Positions 2,123-35,300 of a stretch of DNA of 35,300 bases are shown here, one piece after another. How positions within the stretch are numbered: the stretch's first letter is position 1; each line of letters begins with the position of its first letter. The stretch comes from a virus. The position numbers and the translations under genes were made by a program. The notes under the pieces were generated by a model, which ran no database searches, was not told the DNA's origin, and saw only the letters and a program-made list of their open reading frames with translations. The stretch lies in IMG/VR virus record IMGVR_UViG_3300028361_000077, positions 1-35,300 of that record. One strand, 5' to 3'.

Positions 2123-3362
2123 ACATTACGAGCCGCTGTTCCGTACTCCTCCTGGGGTTCGATACTATATCCACATGGGCGGACGTGGTGCAGGACGTTC
2201 TACTACCGGCTCACAGTTTGGTCTGGGACGCCTGCGTGATACAACGCGGTACTTCCGGTGCGCCATCATGCGGTACGTTCTAGGTGATATTAAAAACAGT
2301 ATCTACCAAGACATCGCCGACCGCATAGAGGAGCAGGACTTGGAGGAGTATATCGACTCGTCTGAGCACGGGTTATATTTCAAATACAAACGCAATACCA
2401 TCAAGGGCATTGGTTTCAAGAAGTCATCGGGTGATCAGAAGTCTAAGCTCAAGTCTCTAGCTAACTACAATTGCGTCATCATCGAAGAGGCGGACGAGGT
2501 GGGAGAGGAGGACTTCATACAGCTCGATGACTCGTTGCGTAAAGCGAACGCGGACATCATCGTGGTACTGCAGCTCAACCCGCCGGACAAGAACCACTGG
2601 ATTATCAAGCGATGGTTCAATCTAGTAGACAGTGGAGTGCCTGGCTTTTATAAGGCTGTACCAAAGCTGGGTCTGACTGATTCTATTGCCGTGTGTACTA
2701 CCTACCGGGAAAACATAGCGAACATCAACCCTAGCTCGGTGGCTAACTACGAACGGTACAAGGAGACAAAGCCTGAGTACTACTACAACTCTATTTGCGG
2801 GTATGTGTCCGAGGGACTGATGGGACGTATATTCAAGAACTGGAAACCTATTAGCGACGAGGAGTTCTATGCACTTCCCTACCCCTCTATCTACGCATTA
2901 GACTTCGGGTTCTCAAACGACCCGAGTGCCTTGGTAGAAATCAAATACCACAACAACGACGTATGGGTGCGCGAGCTGATATACCAGAAGGGACTTACTA
3001 ACCCGCTACTGAGCCAGAAGTTCGAAGACCTGGGACTGTCATACGACGACGTTATATACGCCGACAGCGCCGAGCCAAAGAGTATCCAAGAGCTATGCGA
3101 CCTGGGCTGGTTCGTAGAGCCTGCTGAGAAAGGTCCAGATAGTATTATCGCCGGTATCAATATGCTCCTAGAGAAGCGCGTACACTACACCGAGGGCAGT
3201 ACCAACATCGCCTTCGAGCACGAGAACTACAAATGGCGGTTGGATAAAAACAAAGAGCATACTAACAAGGCAGAGGATAAACATAACCACGGTATGGACG
3301 CTATACGGTACGGGGTATTTACTGACAGCCGTACAGAGTTCGTAGGGTTTGCAGGTTCGTAA
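2076..3362 (+). CDS. terL: Terminase large subunit (packaging ATPase-nuclease)
   Basis: 428 aa. The Walker A region is GGRGAGRST (residues 35-43), and Walker B is CVIIEEADEV (about 131-140) with its catalytic Glu. The RNase H-fold nuclease follows: ALDFGFSNDPSA, then YADSAEPKSI, then HNHGMDAIRY near the C-terminus, giving the acidic metal-binding residues. The layout fits the PBSX/Terminase_3 family. It powers DNA entry into the procapsid and cuts the concatemer. The ORF overlaps terS by 47 bases if ATG 2076 is used; ATG 2106 is an alternative start that leaves a 17-base overlap. Confidence 0.96.
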   Translation: MHYQPVKKTTMQRVNKHYEPLFRTPPGVRYYIHMGGRGAGRSTTGSQFGLGRLRDTTRYFRCAIMRYVLGDIKNSIYQDIADRIEEQDLEEYIDSSEHGLYFKYKRNTIKGIGFKKSSGDQKSKLKSLANYNCVIIEEADEVGEEDFIQLDDSLRKANADIIVVLQLNPPDKNHWIIKRWFNLVDSGVPGFYKAVPKLGLTDSIAVCTTYRENIANINPSSVANYERYKETKPEYYYNSICGYVSEGLMGRIFKNWKPISDEEFYALPYPSIYALDFGFSNDPSALVEIKYHNNDVWVRELIYQKGLTNPLLSQKFEDLGLSYDDVIYADSAEPKSIQELCDLGWFVEPAEKGPDSIIAGINMLLEKRVHYTEGSTNIAFEHENYKWRLDKNKEHTNKAEDKHNHGMDAIRYGVFTDSRTEFVGFAGS

Positions 3363-3365
3363 TCG

Positions 3366-3374
3366 TGTTACAAT
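3366..3374 (+). promoter_or_regulatory. Leaderless extended -10 promoter of the portal gene
   Basis: The element is TGTTACAAT, with TACAAT at 3369-3374. Six bases separate it from ATG 3381. There is no -35-like TTGACA and no Shine-Dalgarno sequence. Confidence 0.75.
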
Positions 3375-3380
3375 TCGCGT

Positions 3381-5381
3381 ATGAGTATCTTTAAAGATAT
3401 AGCCGGGCTTATTAGAGGGAAATCACAAGGCGGTTTTATCGTCGGGGGTTTGCCAGCCAACGGCTCTAGCTGGAACGGGAAGGACTTTTTAAGTGCCGCT
3501 GATATTTCTCTATACACCGACAAGGCTGTGATGAAACGCCGGGAGAAGGTGGGGGAGATTCAATGGGTAGTAAAGGACGATAGAACAGGCGACACTATAG
3601 AAGATCACGATATATTGCGTATCCTGAACCATCCAAACGACCACTTCGACGGTTTCAAGTTTTGGTCTATGTGGCAGGGTTACTACGATTACATTGGAGA
3701 AGCGTACATCGTCATTGAAATGGGTGAGCGTGAAATCTTTGAGCCTAAAAATATGCAAGCGCTACACAGCCTAGTACCTACCAAGGTTACTACCAAGTGG
3801 AACGTAGACGGCACTGTATCAGCGTACGAGTATCAAACACGTACTAGGAAACTACACTTCCTACCTGAGCAGGTTATTCGCGTTATCAACCCAGACCTGA
3901 AGAACCCGATGGTCGGACGCTCTTTGATTAAGTCCGGGGTGCAGTCCATTCAAACGGAGATTCAGATTGGTGCGTACCACGCACGCGTACTAGAGAACGG
4001 TGGAAAGGTAGAGGGTGTATTCAAATTCAAGACTCCCCGCCTGCAGCAACACCAGCTCAAAGCACTGAAGGACGACTACGAGAAGGAGTACGCCGACGCA
4101 CGTAAGTCGGGTATGCCTCTATTCCTAGGTGGAGACAGTGAGTACCAACGTACTGGGCTGTCACCTGACGAGCTATCGTTCCTAGAAGCGAAGTCAATGA
4201 CACTCAAAGACATCGAGATTATGACTGGAGTACCCCAGGCGCTGCTTGGAAGTATGGACGGTTTGCAGTACTCAAATGCGGAAACATCACACCGTATCTT
4301 TTTGCGTGAGACTATCAAGCCATTGCTACGAAACCTAGCCGGTGGACTGGACAAGGTGCTACTACCAGAGGGACTGACATTAACGTTCGTAGATCCAACC
4401 CCTGAGAACGTAGAGGAGAAGATTAAAGTGATTGAGTCGGGTGTCAAGAACTACCTGATTACTCCAAACGAGGGGCGACGTATGCTCGCAGCTTTGATTG
4501 GTGAGGAGCTACCTGACGTACCTGACGGCAACAGTATCCTCGTACCGTTCAACATGATCCCGCTGGGTGACGCTTCTGTTGCGTCTAGAGAGAGCGACAG
4601 TGCGGAGAAAACGAGTAAAAAAAAAGATAACACTGAGGAGGTAGCACATCCGCTTCGCGACCCAGACGTTCGAAAGGTGTACGGGAATATGATGGAGAAG
4701 CGTATGGACAACCGGGAGATTCCGTACAAGCGTGTGACAAAGCAGTATTTCAACGCGCAGCGTGACCGGCTCATCGCTCGGTTAGACCCTACCAAGGCGC
4801 ACGTGTTTAGAAAGGAGGGCATATTAGACGATAACTTCTCTATCGATGTAGAGGTGCAGCTGGGTATGGACGCGTTCCTACCGCTCGTCAAAGAGCTGGT
4901 TATCGCAGCCGGGGTAGACGCACTGGAGCTAGTAGGGTCAGAGGACGACTTCAATGTGTCGGCTAACGTCACCTCTTGGATGGAGAAGCGTACCGGAGTA
5001 TTCCTGAATAGTATCAATGAGACAACGTACAAGAAGCTCACGGAGCAGTTTGCGGAAAGCCTAGCAGAAGGTGAGGGGCGCAAGGCGTTGATTAAACGAA
5101 TCGAGCAAACGTACAAGGACATCAGCCTAGCACGTGCCACTACTATCGCCCGGACAGAGGTACATGCAGCTACACAATTTGGTACTAACCAAGCGTACAA
5201 GCAGGCAGCTGTACCGATCAAGATATGGGTAGCTGTTGGGGATATCCACACCCGACATTCTCACTCAGTTATCGATGGGCAGGAGCGACCGCTGAACTCG
5301 CCGTTCTCTAACGGTTTGATGTACCCGGGGGACGAAGCTGGTGACGCCGGGGAGGTTATCAATTGCCGATGCTCTATATAG
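3381..5381 (+). CDS. Portal protein fused to MuF-type head morphogenesis domain
   Basis: 666 aa. Residues 1 to about 400 read as an HK97-type portal, with segments such as LNHPNDHFDGFKFW, the wing/stem region, and PQALLGSMDGLQYSNAE near 280. The portal forms the dodecameric ring at the capsid vertex. The C-terminal 200 residues end in the SPP1 gp7/MuF signature: ARTEVHAATQFG, then VGDIHTRHSHSVIDGQERP, and a final INCRCSI. Portal and MuF are usually separate adjacent genes; here they form one ORF, joined by a Lys/Glu-rich linker near residues 400-430. Start supported by the leaderless promoter. Confidence 0.93.
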   Translation: MSIFKDIAGLIRGKSQGGFIVGGLPANGSSWNGKDFLSAADISLYTDKAVMKRREKVGEIQWVVKDDRTGDTIEDHDILRILNHPNDHFDGFKFWSMWQGYYDYIGEAYIVIEMGEREIFEPKNMQALHSLVPTKVTTKWNVDGTVSAYEYQTRTRKLHFLPEQVIRVINPDLKNPMVGRSLIKSGVQSIQTEIQIGAYHARVLENGGKVEGVFKFKTPRLQQHQLKALKDDYEKEYADARKSGMPLFLGGDSEYQRTGLSPDELSFLEAKSMTLKDIEIMTGVPQALLGSMDGLQYSNAETSHRIFLRETIKPLLRNLAGGLDKVLLPEGLTLTFVDPTPENVEEKIKVIESGVKNYLITPNEGRRMLAALIGEELPDVPDGNSILVPFNMIPLGDASVASRESDSAEKTSKKKDNTEEVAHPLRDPDVRKVYGNMMEKRMDNREIPYKRVTKQYFNAQRDRLIARLDPTKAHVFRKEGILDDNFSIDVEVQLGMDAFLPLVKELVIAAGVDALELVGSEDDFNVSANVTSWMEKRTGVFLNSINETTYKKLTEQFAESLAEGEGRKALIKRIEQTYKDISLARATTIARTEVHAATQFGTNQAYKQAAVPIKIWVAVGDIHTRHSHSVIDGQERPLNSPFSNGLMYPGDEAGDAGEVINCRCSI

Positions 5382-5393
5382 CTCGGTTTAGTA

Positions 5394-5402
5394 TGTTACA
5401 AT
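5394..5402 (+). promoter_or_regulatory. Extended -10 promoter of the protease gene
   Basis: TGTTACAAT is identical to the portal promoter, but lies 16 bases before ATG 5419, giving a leader of about 9 nt. The leader is AT-rich and has no ribosome-binding sequence. Confidence 0.65.
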
Positions 5403-5418
5403 TTATTTATTAAAGCCT

Positions 5419-6348
5419 ATGAAACATAAAATCAAACTCAACGGTCAAATAGTCGAAGTCAATGAAGGTGAAAAGGTTGTGGCTTCATTTGGCGTTGCTG
5501 TTAAGGCGGTAGATAAAGAAAACTACAAGCTGACTATGATTTGTAGTACTGAGGATATTGACCGGCACGGGGATACCGTACTGCAATCAGGGTGGGATCT
5601 AAAGCACTTTAAGAAGAACCCTGTTATCCTAAACAGCCACAACTACTTTGACGCTACCGAGGTGATTGCCAAGGCATCGAAGCCGCGTATCGAGGGTACT
5701 GGTAAAAAAGCGAAGCTGGTAATGGACTGGGAGTTTGCCGTTGAGGAGAACCCCAAAGCTAAAATCATCTTTGATTTATACGCAGGTGGATTTCTACACG
5801 CATCGTCTGTTGGTTTCATTCCTAAGAAGTTCGGGGAGCGAGAGGGCGGAGGGCGTGACTGGTTCACCGTAGTAGAAGCGGAACTGCTCGAAGTATCAGC
5901 GGTATCAGTACCAGCCAACGCTGCAGCTACGTTAGCGAAAAGTATCGGTGCAAACCTAAAGGACGTCACAGAAGCTATTGGTATCGAGGACGAGTCAGTA
6001 GACGAACCTGAGGAGGTAGAAGAAGACACACCTGAAGAAGTAGAAGACGAAGCTGTAGAGGAAGAGTCAGAAGAAGAAGAGGTTGAGGTAGATCCAGAGG
6101 AACAGGAGGCGGAGCTACCGGCAGAGCCAGCTGAGAAGAAGGTGAAACCGTTGTCGCATAACCGGAAAGTATTAAACGCTATCCACAACCTAGAGAGCCA
6201 AAAGGCTAAAGGGCTGAAAGCAGCGCGTGCTAGTATTGAGAAACTAGTCGATGTGAGCGGTCTCAAGTCATTAGACGAAAAGACGAAAAGCAAAGTGAAG
6301 AACCGAAAGGTACACGCTGCGCTACGCAAACTGACCAAGGGTATCTAG
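5419..6348 (+). CDS. Prohead protease, HK97 type, with acidic C-terminal extension
   Basis: 309 aa. Residues 1-180 match the U35-type prohead protease: DIDRHGDTVLQSGWDL, then NPVILNSHN (candidate catalytic His), GGFLHASSVGF (candidate Ser), and ELLEVSAVSVPANAAA. The protease matures the capsid shell. From about residue 190 follows a Glu-rich acidic stretch of some 50 residues, then a Lys-rich helical tail. That extension resembles a scaffold-like delta domain, so this protein may also help shell assembly; that part is inference. The gene sits between portal and capsid, the usual place. Confidence 0.92.
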   Translation: MKHKIKLNGQIVEVNEGEKVVASFGVAVKAVDKENYKLTMICSTEDIDRHGDTVLQSGWDLKHFKKNPVILNSHNYFDATEVIAKASKPRIEGTGKKAKLVMDWEFAVEENPKAKIIFDLYAGGFLHASSVGFIPKKFGEREGGGRDWFTVVEAELLEVSAVSVPANAAATLAKSIGANLKDVTEAIGIEDESVDEPEEVEEDTPEEVEDEAVEEESEEEEVEVDPEEQEAELPAEPAEKKVKPLSHNRKVLNAIHNLESQKAKGLKAARASIEKLVDVSGLKSLDEKTKSKVKNRKVHAALRKLTKGI

Positions 6349-25325: not shown

Positions 25326-26078
25326 ATGAGTGAACAAGAAGAAGTTGTTGTATACGATCAAGGTGAAGGTAACGACAAAGCTATTGTTGAGCAAATAAAT
25401 GCACGACTCAACACCGAGCTAGCTGACCCCAAGGTGCTCACTGCACTACTAGCTACTACCTTTGCTGGACTCAAGAGTACAACCCAAGTGAAGCAGGCAC
25501 TGATGGAGGGAATGATTCGAGGGTTCTCCTTCGAGGACTTCCTACACAAGCACGTGTACGCCATTCCCTACGGCGACAAATACTCGCTGGTGACATCTAT
25601 CGACCACGCTCGGAAGCGCGGAATGCGTAACGGAGTAGTAGGTAGCGGAGCACCAGAGTACACGTACACAGACGATAAAAAAACAACGGTGGAGAGCTGC
25701 AGCGTTACTATTAAAAGATTAGTACCCGGGACGAGCCACGTTGGAGAGTTTACCGCAACGGTAGATTTCAAAGAGTACACAACCGGTCGCAACCTCTGGT
25801 CCAGCAAACCAAAGACTATGATCGCGAAGGTAGCTGAAATGCACGCGCTACGGAAAGCCTGCCCGGACGAGCTGGCACAGTACTACTCAGAGGAGGAGAT
25901 GCACAAGGAGACGCAGCAACCAAACCGATGGAGCAAAGCGACGGACAACAGTAAATCATTAAAAATGGGTAGCGTAAAAACAGACAATGCCACATCAAAC
26001 AAAGGTCAAAAAGACCAGAAAAACAAAGAAGCTGAAGAGGGAGAACCTGATGCCGCTGGTATCGACGAGGAGAGTTAA
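25326..26078 (+). CDS. recT: RecT-like single-strand annealing protein
   Basis: 250 aa. The core matches the RecT/Bet family: QALMEGMIRGFSFEDFLHKH, AIPYGDKYSLVTSIDHARKR, then the family signature KTMIAKVAEMHALRKACPDE. It would coat single strands and anneal them during recombination or concatemer formation. After residue 195 the chain is polar and disordered (Lys, Asn, Glu, Asp). The gene overlaps the nuclease-motor gene by 29 bases, as RecT usually pairs with an exonuclease gene. Confidence 0.88.
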   Translation: MSEQEEVVVYDQGEGNDKAIVEQINARLNTELADPKVLTALLATTFAGLKSTTQVKQALMEGMIRGFSFEDFLHKHVYAIPYGDKYSLVTSIDHARKRGMRNGVVGSGAPEYTYTDDKKTTVESCSVTIKRLVPGTSHVGEFTATVDFKEYTTGRNLWSSKPKTMIAKVAEMHALRKACPDELAQYYSEEEMHKETQQPNRWSKATDNSKSLKMGSVKTDNATSNKGQKDQKNKEAEEGEPDAAGIDEES

Positions 26079-28017
26079 ACAGGTCGACGACTTTCCGGTA
26101 GATCACCTCTCTTCTAGCTCACTGGTAAAGTTCGGATCTAACCCGGTAATGTTTAAGATAAACGAGATCCAGGGCGAGTACATTGAATGCCTAAGTAGCG
26201 CCAAGAGTGTGCTCGGGCAGGGATTCCACAAAGCGATGGAAGCGTACTATTTTGGTACGGAGAACCATCCAGTAACTACCGAGGGTGAAGCGCTCGAGCT
26301 TGGTCTGAACGTCGGCATGGACTTCCTGAAGATGTACAACGACGGATTCATTGACTACAACAAGCAGATACCAAATAAACAGAAACTGTTTGACAAGTTT
26401 ACGTTCCTATACAGCCACTACGTGAAAGAGAAAGGCTGGGATTGCGGAGAGGAGGCGTTATACGCTGAGCACCTGATGAAGTACACAGTGGCGCTGAAAT
26501 GGCGCGGAGAGGACTTGCTACTACCAGTACCGCTCAAAGGATACACCGACAAGATATTCCGAAAGGACGGACTGCTGAAAATTAAAGACTACAAAACGGT
26601 GGCAGCATTCACCGACCTGGAGAAAATAGACGGAGCTAAAATGCTCGCAGCCGTAACGTACTACCTGCTGGTGTACGCAGAGACCGGAGAAGAACCGTAC
26701 AGTATCGTATACGAAGAGGTGAAGCACACGCTCAACCGCGACGGTGGCAGCCAGATTCAAACGTACGAGATAGTATTTGCAGACCACGATCTATACTTCG
26801 ACTTCTTCTTTCGATACTACGGAGACGTTGTCCGGGGGCTGAATGGAGAGATGGTATATGTACCCAACGTATACACGCTATTCGATAACGAGGTATCGCT
26901 AGTAGCGTATATCAACAAGTTGGACGTAGACGAGGAGGCAGCAAAGCTGATGAAAAAGCACCGCGTCAGTAATATCACCGACGTACTGCGAAAGCGCACG
27001 CAAAAGACCAAAAACGTCCACAAGTTCATGGAGACAGCAGCAAAGCAATTTACTAGCGCACAAGCAATAAACTACGAGGACATGAAAGACCACGACAAAA
27101 TCAAAACCAAGATGATGGAGCATGGCATGATGCTGGACTTCGAACAGAAGGTAGAGGGAGACACGGTAGACCTGTACCGATACAACCCGTCGATTGGATT
27201 GGCTATGAAACGAGTGAAGAACTACGTGCCGGACATCGAACAGGTACTAGGAAAAGACAAGGTTCGTATTCTAGCTCCCGAGCCAGGTACTAACTACGTG
27301 ACGTTCGAAGTACCACGTACCAAGCGAACGTTCCCGGCGCTACCAAAGCACAACAAGACCTTTGAGCTGGCTATTGGAAACACCACCACGGGTGAGTCCT
27401 GTCGGTACGACGTACGAGAAGCCCCGCACATGCTAGTAGCTGGATCTACTGGGGGAGGTAAATCGTACTTCCTGAATAACATCATCCGCCAGCTGATAGA
27501 AACGCCAAACGTAGACCTGCACCTCTTTGACCCGAAGCGAGTAGAGCTGACGCAATTCAAAGCCGACGCAAAGGAATACAAGAATACTCCACAGGGCATT
27601 CTAGAGAGCCTGCAGGAGCTGAAAAAGGAGATGGACAAACGCTACATAATGATGGAAAAGGAAGGTGCTCGACACATACGCGACGTTAAAAAGCTCCGGT
27701 ATAAATTCATCATCATCGACGAGTTTGCCGAGCTATCGATGGGAGGAGAGGTTGGATCATATATAAAATCTATAGCGCAGCTGGGACGAGCAGCAGGAAT
27801 GCACCTGATAATCGCTACGCAGCGAGCTTCCTCTAAAATCATCGACGGAGATATCAAGGTAAACTTCCCTACGAAAGTAGTATTCAAAATGAGTAAAAAG
27901 GTCGACAGTCAGGTGATGCTAGACGAAACTGGAGCTGAGAAGCTATTAGGTAAAGGAGACATGCTCTTTGCTGCAGACGGTAGTGAGATGATTCGACTCC
28001 AAGGATACGACAATTAA
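26050..28017 (+). CDS. RecB-type nuclease fused to an FtsK-type DNA motor
   Basis: 655 aa from ATG 26050; an in-frame ATG at 25987 lies deep in recT. Residues 1-245 form a PD-(D/E)XK nuclease of the RecB/Cas4 kind: GFHKAMEAY (His60), GYTDKIF (Asp167), KIKDYKTV (Asp180, Lys182). The usual Gln before the Tyr motif is replaced (LAAVTYYLL). Residues 290-350 are a helical linker. From 355 on is a full FtsK/SpoIIIE motor: the beta region with VRILAPEPGTNYVTFEVP, PHMLVAGSTGGGKS (Walker A, Lys471), FIIIDEFAELS (Walker B, Asp557-Glu558), HLIIATQRAS, and DETGAEKLLGKGDML. No membrane part or gamma domain. It would pump and trim double-stranded DNA for RecT. Confidence 0.9.
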   Translation: MPLVSTRRVKQVDDFPVDHLSSSSLVKFGSNPVMFKINEIQGEYIECLSSAKSVLGQGFHKAMEAYYFGTENHPVTTEGEALELGLNVGMDFLKMYNDGFIDYNKQIPNKQKLFDKFTFLYSHYVKEKGWDCGEEALYAEHLMKYTVALKWRGEDLLLPVPLKGYTDKIFRKDGLLKIKDYKTVAAFTDLEKIDGAKMLAAVTYYLLVYAETGEEPYSIVYEEVKHTLNRDGGSQIQTYEIVFADHDLYFDFFFRYYGDVVRGLNGEMVYVPNVYTLFDNEVSLVAYINKLDVDEEAAKLMKKHRVSNITDVLRKRTQKTKNVHKFMETAAKQFTSAQAINYEDMKDHDKIKTKMMEHGMMLDFEQKVEGDTVDLYRYNPSIGLAMKRVKNYVPDIEQVLGKDKVRILAPEPGTNYVTFEVPRTKRTFPALPKHNKTFELAIGNTTTGESCRYDVREAPHMLVAGSTGGGKSYFLNNIIRQLIETPNVDLHLFDPKRVELTQFKADAKEYKNTPQGILESLQELKKEMDKRYIMMEKEGARHIRDVKKLRYKFIIIDEFAELSMGGEVGSYIKSIAQLGRAAGMHLIIATQRASSKIIDGDIKVNFPTKVVFKMSKKVDSQVMLDETGAEKLLGKGDMLFAADGSEMIRLQGYDN

Positions 28018-31791: not shown

Positions 31792-32136
31792 ATGACAAAC
31801 CTGATACTCCAGTCAAAGATACCGTCGAAGAAGAACAGCTACCGGCTGTCGAAAGCAGGAGGGATGTACAAGCCAGCGAAGATAACGGAGTTCGAGGAGT
31901 TAGTACAGATGGAAGTACTGGTCCAAAAGACCCAGTCAGTACCCGGGACGTTCTCCCTGAAAGGAAAGTTCTACCTCTCAAAGACAGCGGACTTGGACAA
32001 CGCGACGACGACGCTACTGGACTGCCTAGAGAAAGCGGGAGTGATAGAAAACGACAAGCTCCTGGTACACCTGGACGTGTGGAAGATAGTGCAACCTAAA
32101 CGGTTTGGCTGTGAGGTCACTCTGACTGCGGTATAA
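31792..32136 (+). CDS. rusA: RusA-type Holliday junction resolvase
   Basis: 114 aa. The RusA pattern is clear: PSKKNSYRLSKAGG at the start, then the catalytic region KTADLDNATTTLLDCLEKAG with paired Asp residues, VIENDKLLVHLDVWKI with the next Asp, and a basic end. RusA cuts four-way junctions and would resolve replication or recombination intermediates before packaging. It closes the operon begun by recT. A longer overlapping frame (31761-32099) is judged a shadow. Confidence 0.85.
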   Translation: MTNLILQSKIPSKKNSYRLSKAGGMYKPAKITEFEELVQMEVLVQKTQSVPGTFSLKGKFYLSKTADLDNATTTLLDCLEKAGVIENDKLLVHLDVWKIVQPKRFGCEVTLTAV

Positions 32137-34678: not shown

Positions 34679-35300
34679 ATGAAAAAAATCACTCCATACG
34701 ACAAGAACGCTAAAATCCACACCGACGAGCAGCTCGAGCTCTTGGCTAAGGTAGTAGCTGAGGTGGGCTGGCGACAGTCTATCGAAGTAAACATGGAGGG
34801 GGTTATAGTAGCCGGTCACGGTCGCTATATGGCGTGGGAGAAGTTTGGTAACGATATGGATCTACCTGAGCCGTGGATTATAGACGGCGAGGGAAATACT
34901 ATCCAAGGAGAGCACGCAAAGTTTGCGCTCACCTCAGAGCAAGAGGAGATGTGGCGCTTGGCTGACAATCAGATAAACGCGCTCACCGGGGTCGACCTAA
35001 AAATAGTTATTCCGCTGCTAGAAAACATGGAGCTACCAATGCTCAACCTGACCGGTTTCGACCTGGACCTATTGCAAAAGCCTGAGCCGGAGGCGGATAA
35101 CGTCCCAGATACCCCTGATACGGCAAAAACCGTAGCAGGTGACGTTTATAGCCTCGGGGAGCGACATCGGCTCGTTTGTGGCGATGCGACCATCCTAGAG
35201 GACATGGAGGTACTGATGAACGGGTACAAAGCTGATATGTGGCTTACTGACCCACCGTACAACCTCGACTATATCGGGAAGATTAAGAACGCGCTCAAAA
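34679..35300 (+). CDS. ParB-domain/DNA methyltransferase fusion, N-terminal part
   Basis: The start of the gene continued at 1-746. Residues 1 to about 100 form a ParB/Srx-like domain: TPYDKNAKIHTDEQLELLAK, then GWRQSIEVNMEGVIVAGHGR, where the GHGR motif is the ParB nucleotide-binding signature. Next comes a helical part with LADNQINALTG, then the first methyltransferase residues (GDVYSLGERHRLVCGDA). ParB-methyltransferase fusions are common in phages; the ParB part may guide the enzyme along DNA. Confidence 0.93.
   Translation, partial: MKKITPYDKNAKIHTDEQLELLAKVVAEVGWRQSIEVNMEGVIVAGHGRYMAWEKFGNDMDLPEPWIIDGEGNTIQGEHAKFALTSEQEEMWRLADNQINALTGVDLKIVIPLLENMELPMLNLTGFDLDLLQKPEPEADNVPDTPDTAKTVAGDVYSLGERHRLVCGDATILEDMEVLMNGYKADMWLTDPPYNLDYIGKIKNALK
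35157..35300. repeat. Terminal redundancy, right copy
   Basis: Copy of bases 1-144 with a single change at 35283. It shows that the molecule is circular or circularly permuted. Confidence 0.93.

Follow-up and report, generated by a model that had tools for sequence, protein, structure and literature searches.

Genomic context and organization of the fusion locus

The window, i.e., the whole stretch of 35,300 nucleotides analyzed here, corresponds to an entire IMG/VR virus record (IMGVR_UViG_3300028361_000077). Positions 1-126 recur exactly at 35157-35282. Although the record is classed as lacking end repeats, this exact 126-bp repetition close to its two ends makes it probable that the phage genome, at ~35.16 kb, is essentially complete. 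An uninterrupted reading frame on the plus strand constitutes one gene for a 655-aa protein in which an N-terminal PD-(D/E)XK nuclease is followed by a connector and an FtsK alpha and beta motor, as described for a single continuous ORF in the first-pass annotation. The start codon chosen there, ATG 26050, is better than the alternative in-frame ATG upstream at 25987 because an AGGGAG-like ribosome site lies just ahead of it. The upstream gene, whose last 29 bp lie within the fusion gene, belongs to the RecT family (PF03837, 6e-17). Terminase, portal and capsid proteins, a DnaA-C-like protein, a DnaD-like loader and RusA, a Holliday-junction resolvase, are encoded on the same strand. The features of the locus are as follows:

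25326-26078, plus strand: RecT/Bet-like single-strand annealing protein, 250 aa (PF03837, phrog_2449/10056/252)
26050-28017, plus strand: nuclease-FtsK fusion gene, 655 aa (open frame; 24 relatives)
26104-26841, plus strand: PD-(D/E)XK (RecB/RecE-like) nuclease domain, approximately residues 19-264 (PDDEXK_1, AlphaFold2, Foldseek)
26227, 26467, 26548, 26587 and 26593: nuclease residues H60, E140, D167, D180 and K182, respectively
26869-27099, plus strand: connector, residues 274-350
27070-27315, plus strand: FtsK alpha domain, residues 341-422 (PF17854)
27352-28014, plus strand: FtsK beta (RecA-like) motor, residues 435-655 (PF01580; PaFtsK 2iuu; Foldseek 2ius/6t8o)
27442-27465, 27718-27723 and 27787-27789: motor sites Walker A, Walker B DE and arginine finger R580, respectively

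Distribution of the nuclease-FtsK fusion

Relatives were sought by sequence-pattern scans and confirmed with tblastn. Besides the window, 22 IMG/VR contigs and three contigs of bacterial MAGs were found to carry the fusion. Since one of the MAG contigs (L016) matches an IMG/VR entry, the total including the window is 25 distinct fusions, and the architecture is hence conserved far outside the window genome. The relatives are mostly 29-55% identical to the window fusion, and since 24 other distinct loci carry it at this level of divergence, the possibility that an assembly or sequencing error had merged two genes, raised in the first-pass annotation, was rejected. Moreover, no split nuclease/motor form was seen among the viral matches to nuclease-derived patterns, including those from a nuclease-only query, as these matches were also fused. 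The nuclease-motor fusion is ancient.

Among 50,697 deposited phage records no match covered 80% of the fusion query; the motor half alone was found in 247 of them, the nuclease half of the window had no match, and the nuclease halves of other members matched RecB/Cas4-type exonucleases weakly. Likewise, none of 72,556 plasmids covered 80% of the query, and among the matches listed it was the motor that matched. According to the annotations, the stand-alone phage FtsK gene that was inspected, from Mycobacterium phage Thibault, and the inspected RecB-type exonuclease genes are not neighbors of one another, and none of them adjoins an annealing gene. In Thibault, a gene for a Ku-like protein that binds DNA ends is located three genes upstream of this FtsK-like translocase gene (L024, 3547-6239), and the two could possibly form another end-processing set. 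A large part of the fusion model can be aligned with the BFVD entry A0A8S5RDL0 (400 aa), which is named PD-(D/E)XK nuclease and may be an unrecognized fragment of such a fusion. No published description of a nuclease-FtsK fusion was found in a search whose coverage excluded most subscription journals as well as the 2004 FtsK-HerA and 2002 annealing-protein surveys; within the databases and literature searchable, the earlier statement that no described system of this exact build is known holds.

Constant pairing with exchangeable annealing proteins

The RecT gene noted beside the fusion during the first pass is part of a conserved pairing: an annealing protein is encoded immediately next to the fusion in all 25 loci, upstream in 24 and downstream in one. 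Because the searches were keyed on the fusion or the nuclease half only, these neighbors were not selected for. The exception is L061 (1431-3895), where the order is reversed and the annealing gene overlaps the stop codon of a 600-aa fusion; its product was assigned by resemblance to the Bet/RecT-like group, without an HMM scan, and the annealing proteins of L017 and L018 were assigned by sequence and tree grouping. Three distant types of annealing neighbor were distinguished, namely a RecT group (phrog_148), a Bet/RecT-like group (phrog_2780/252) and the type shared by the window and L050. The annealing proteins of the window and L050 are sisters with 54% identity, and the adjoining fusions belong to different clades; a tree forcing these two fusions together was rejected (AU test, p = 0.00012, for a pair picked after the first tree was seen). 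Mapped onto the fusion tree, the partner types imply a minimum of three switches. As sister annealing proteins adjoin fusions of different clades, sequence comparison indicates that the annealing partner was exchanged while the fusion and its adjacency persisted.

The fusion was the sole PDDEXK_1 protein in all 11 virus records tested and YqaJ was absent from each of them, i.e., no second, plain exonuclease was detected by either model. An exonuclease-type gene adjoining an annealing gene, the arrangement that defines SynExo systems, is present in 25/25 loci.

These observations bear on the reading of the fusion as a counter-attack or host-takeover nuclease that would pump and destroy host or competitor DNA, with the annealing gene as a mere neighbor. 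Nuclease-HerA pairs occur in defence systems, phage FtsK-like proteins are classed by PHROGs under moron/host takeover, and SIR2-HerA was among the Foldseek matches of the motor. However, adjacency to an annealing gene was maintained through partner exchange and order reversal and no immunity- or toxin-like gene was noticed adjoining the fusion, which renders this explanation very unlikely.

The nuclease half

Pfam detected PDDEXK_1 at residues 19-234 (E 7e-6), and the nuclease half alone was modeled by AlphaFold2 with a pLDDT of 89. Its Foldseek matches comprised RecE (3h4r), AddB, MGME1 and Cas4, including AddAB nuclease domains, with RecE 3h4r reaching the highest TM-scores among the listed PDB matches (0.51/0.63). 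Both the fold and the H...E...D...D-x-K active site place this half in the RecB/PDDEXK_1 superfamily. The His, Asp, Asp and Lys residues reported earlier are present as H60, D167, D180 and K182, and together with E140 they are invariant in 24/24 aligned fusions (the 25th, L061, is not part of this alignment and was read by eye); a loss of catalytic residues in relatives was looked for, and every one of them was kept. A Cas4/AddB-type iron-sulphur nuclease identity was rejected: a conserved cysteine cluster is absent from the family alignment, which therefore gives no sign of such a site, although these cysteines define only the Cas4/AddB subtype and not the whole RecB/PDDEXK_1 superfamily.

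The nuclease could act as a flap or Holliday-type endonuclease instead of a processive exonuclease. A rival to the resection of DNA ends is that the motor serves mainly as a mobile clamp or remodeling pump: it would move branched DNA or strip proteins and so carry a nuclease specific for certain structures to intermediates of replication or recombination. Structure specificity is possible for PD-(D/E)XK domains of the RecB family, remodeling of protein-DNA complexes is an activity of FtsK motors, and the fusion gene lies in a replication region together with genes for the DnaD-like loader and the DnaA-C-like protein. Nevertheless, we regard this rival as unlikely: a Holliday-junction resolvase, RusA, is already encoded at 31792-32136, RecE, an exonuclease, and AddB are nearest to the nuclease fold by TM-score, and the constant pairing with annealing proteins is better fitted by resection.

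The motor half and the connector

FtsK_alpha and FtsK_SpoIIIE were detected by Pfam at residues 341-422 (E 1e-8) and 435-547 (E 9e-26), respectively. Walker A reads GSTGGGKS (residues 465-472) and Walker B comprises D557-E558; the G, K and S of the former, the D-E of the latter and the arginine finger are invariant in 22/22 fusions that reach the motor. A degenerate nuclease or motor was accordingly rejected on the basis of the active-site residues invariant among the relatives. In the DNA complex of PaFtsK, R620 is the arginine finger, R632 and K643 of loop II contact DNA, and so do K657 and R661 of loop I (PMC7321959). Alignment mapping showed that the R620 equivalent is kept in all fusions reaching the motor and that the equivalents of R632 and K643 are each altered in one fusion only; the loop-I contacts K657 and R661 are not conserved and vary among the fusions. 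Foldseek matched the motor to the FtsK alpha-beta structures 2ius/6t8o (E ~1e-25, TMt ~0.73), whereas the matches to HerA were far weaker (1e-7 to 1e-10). The FtsK-type motor was the only one above the Pfam cut-off, and no SF1 helicase motor was found in the fusion.

The description of this half as a complete FtsK motor stands as far as the alpha domain and the RecA-like beta core with intact Walker A and B are concerned, but does not extend to the gamma (winged-helix) domain, for which there is no Pfam match and no room, the ORF ending where beta ends. The N-terminal membrane domain of full FtsK is replaced by the nuclease. Judging from sequence, the motor would form a hexameric ring and translocate dsDNA at the expense of ATP.

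AlphaFold2 on 13 family members gave a pLDDT of 79; residues 291-339 remained below 50 and the relative placement of the domains is uncertain (pTM 0.48). The connector has a near-fixed length: it spans 77 residues in almost every member of group A and 55 in group B. It is perhaps an adaptor domain, though partly of low confidence in the model. The motor carries a variable insert in the fusions of L006, L007 and L011-L013, the stretch that separates Walker B from the LAQ-A motif ranging from 13 to 87 residues among members.

The motor could alternatively package or segregate the phage genome, with the nuclease trimming ends for it. DNA is packaged by FtsK/HerA ATPases in membrane-containing viruses (PMC7824862). 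The window phage, however, encodes a terminase whose large subunit is normal and whose small subunit is weakly matched, together with a portal. As the fusion gene lies in the recombination/replication region, away from the terminase and portal genes, a packaging role is highly improbable.

Proposed function and comparison with known systems

The mechanism suggested in the first-pass annotation, in which duplex DNA is pulled in by the motor and trimmed by the nuclease and single strands are handed to RecT, is the best-supported reading. We propose, with a probability of roughly two in three (0.68), that the fusion is a motor-driven DNA-end resection exonuclease supplying single strands to RecT/Bet, i.e., the exonuclease half of a SynExo system. 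Following this, the FtsK alpha-beta parts would form a hexameric ring at the end of a DNA duplex, ATP would drive pumping of the duplex past the N-terminal nuclease domains, these would degrade one strand and, in the last step, the exposed single strand would be passed to the adjacent RecT/Bet-type protein for annealing. Ring formation, coupling of resection to ATP, strand polarity and physical hand-off to the annealing protein are predicted elements of this proposal. Speaking for it are the invariant catalytic residues of both halves, the adjacency to an annealing gene that outlasted partner exchange and order reversal, the lack of any other PDDEXK_1 protein and of YqaJ in the 11 records, the RecE-like nuclease fold, the FtsK-like motor fold and the HerA-NurA precedent. 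Weighing against it are the variable loop-I contacts, the uncertain placement of the domains, the possible endonuclease mode of action and the difference between six nucleases per ring and a NurA dimer.

The fusion does not fully fit any single known family, and by its context it groups with SynExo systems. RecE is the classical partner of RecT, and as in RecE-RecT and lambda Exo-Beta the annealing gene lies directly beside the exonuclease gene and the PD-(D/E)XK fold is RecE-like; unlike in these systems, whose exonucleases lack an ATPase, an FtsK ring motor is fused and there is no YqaJ match. With FtsK/SpoIIIE the fusion shares the alpha-beta motor, Walker A/B and arginine finger (~30% identity, TMt 0.73), but it lacks the membrane and gamma domains and carries an N-terminal nuclease instead. 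In AddAB/RecBCD, too, a nuclease of the RecB family is physically coupled to a DNA motor that serves resection, as is predicted for the fusion; the motor of the fusion, however, is a ring-type dsDNA pump and not an SF1 helicase.

HerA-NurA provides a solved precedent for a ring motor that feeds a resection nuclease (PMC9960219). The likeness lies in an FtsK/HerA-superfamily ring motor coupled to a nuclease and making single strands before recombination, as predicted here. By contrast, the fusion has neither a HerA motor with HAS barrel nor a NurA nuclease; it combines an FtsK alpha-beta motor with a PD-(D/E)XK nuclease in one polypeptide, is encoded by phages and has a RecT/Bet partner. Furthermore, a NurA dimer sits on HerA, whereas six nucleases per ring would be expected for a hexameric fusion. 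By analogy, the fusion appears best explained as a single-chain counterpart of HerA-NurA/AddAB in function, embedded in a SynExo module.

On balance, it seems reasonably probable that the fusion represents a class of DNA-end resection enzyme not described before, in which a single chain unites a nuclease with a ring-type dsDNA translocase and serves as the power-driven exonuclease of annealase recombination in a tailed-phage lineage (some members possibly infecting Patescibacteria), compatible with several distantly related annealing partners. In known phage annealase systems the exonucleases work independently of ATP, while resection powered by a motor has been described for cellular machines of several subunits; a ring motor and nuclease in one polypeptide would link the two. 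It would be a compact model for a dsDNA pump driving strand-specific resection and a candidate for long-range resection and recombineering, and its interchangeable annealing partners make the question of hand-off directly testable.

Putative hosts

L017, a 6.4-kb contig of a Patescibacteria MAG, carries nifS/iscU-like genes (51-1722) followed by the RecT-fusion pair (2878-5710), and possibly represents either a prophage of a Patescibacterium or a contig of chimeric origin. In three of 380 Patescibacteria genomes, a stand-alone chromosomal nuclease closely similar to the phage domain was found (E 1e-33 to 1e-43), whereas the matches in 395 Bacteroidota genomes, other than the fusion-bearing contig itself, were all long ORFs of the size of AddB (E 1e-11 to 1e-15). 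The nuclease relatives in Patescibacteria and the pair on L017, as compared to the weaker Bacteroidota matches, hint at Patescibacteria hosts for some of the fusion phages, in a sample of two phyla in which MAG misbinning or chimeric contigs are possible. No FtsK or annealing gene adjoins the stand-alone nuclease genes within the stretch examined (L029, 1459-2286; L030, 1426-2313; L031, 1459-2358), and the encoded proteins share N-x-D-G-x-x-Q and PNPSD/PNPTD motifs with the group B fusions.
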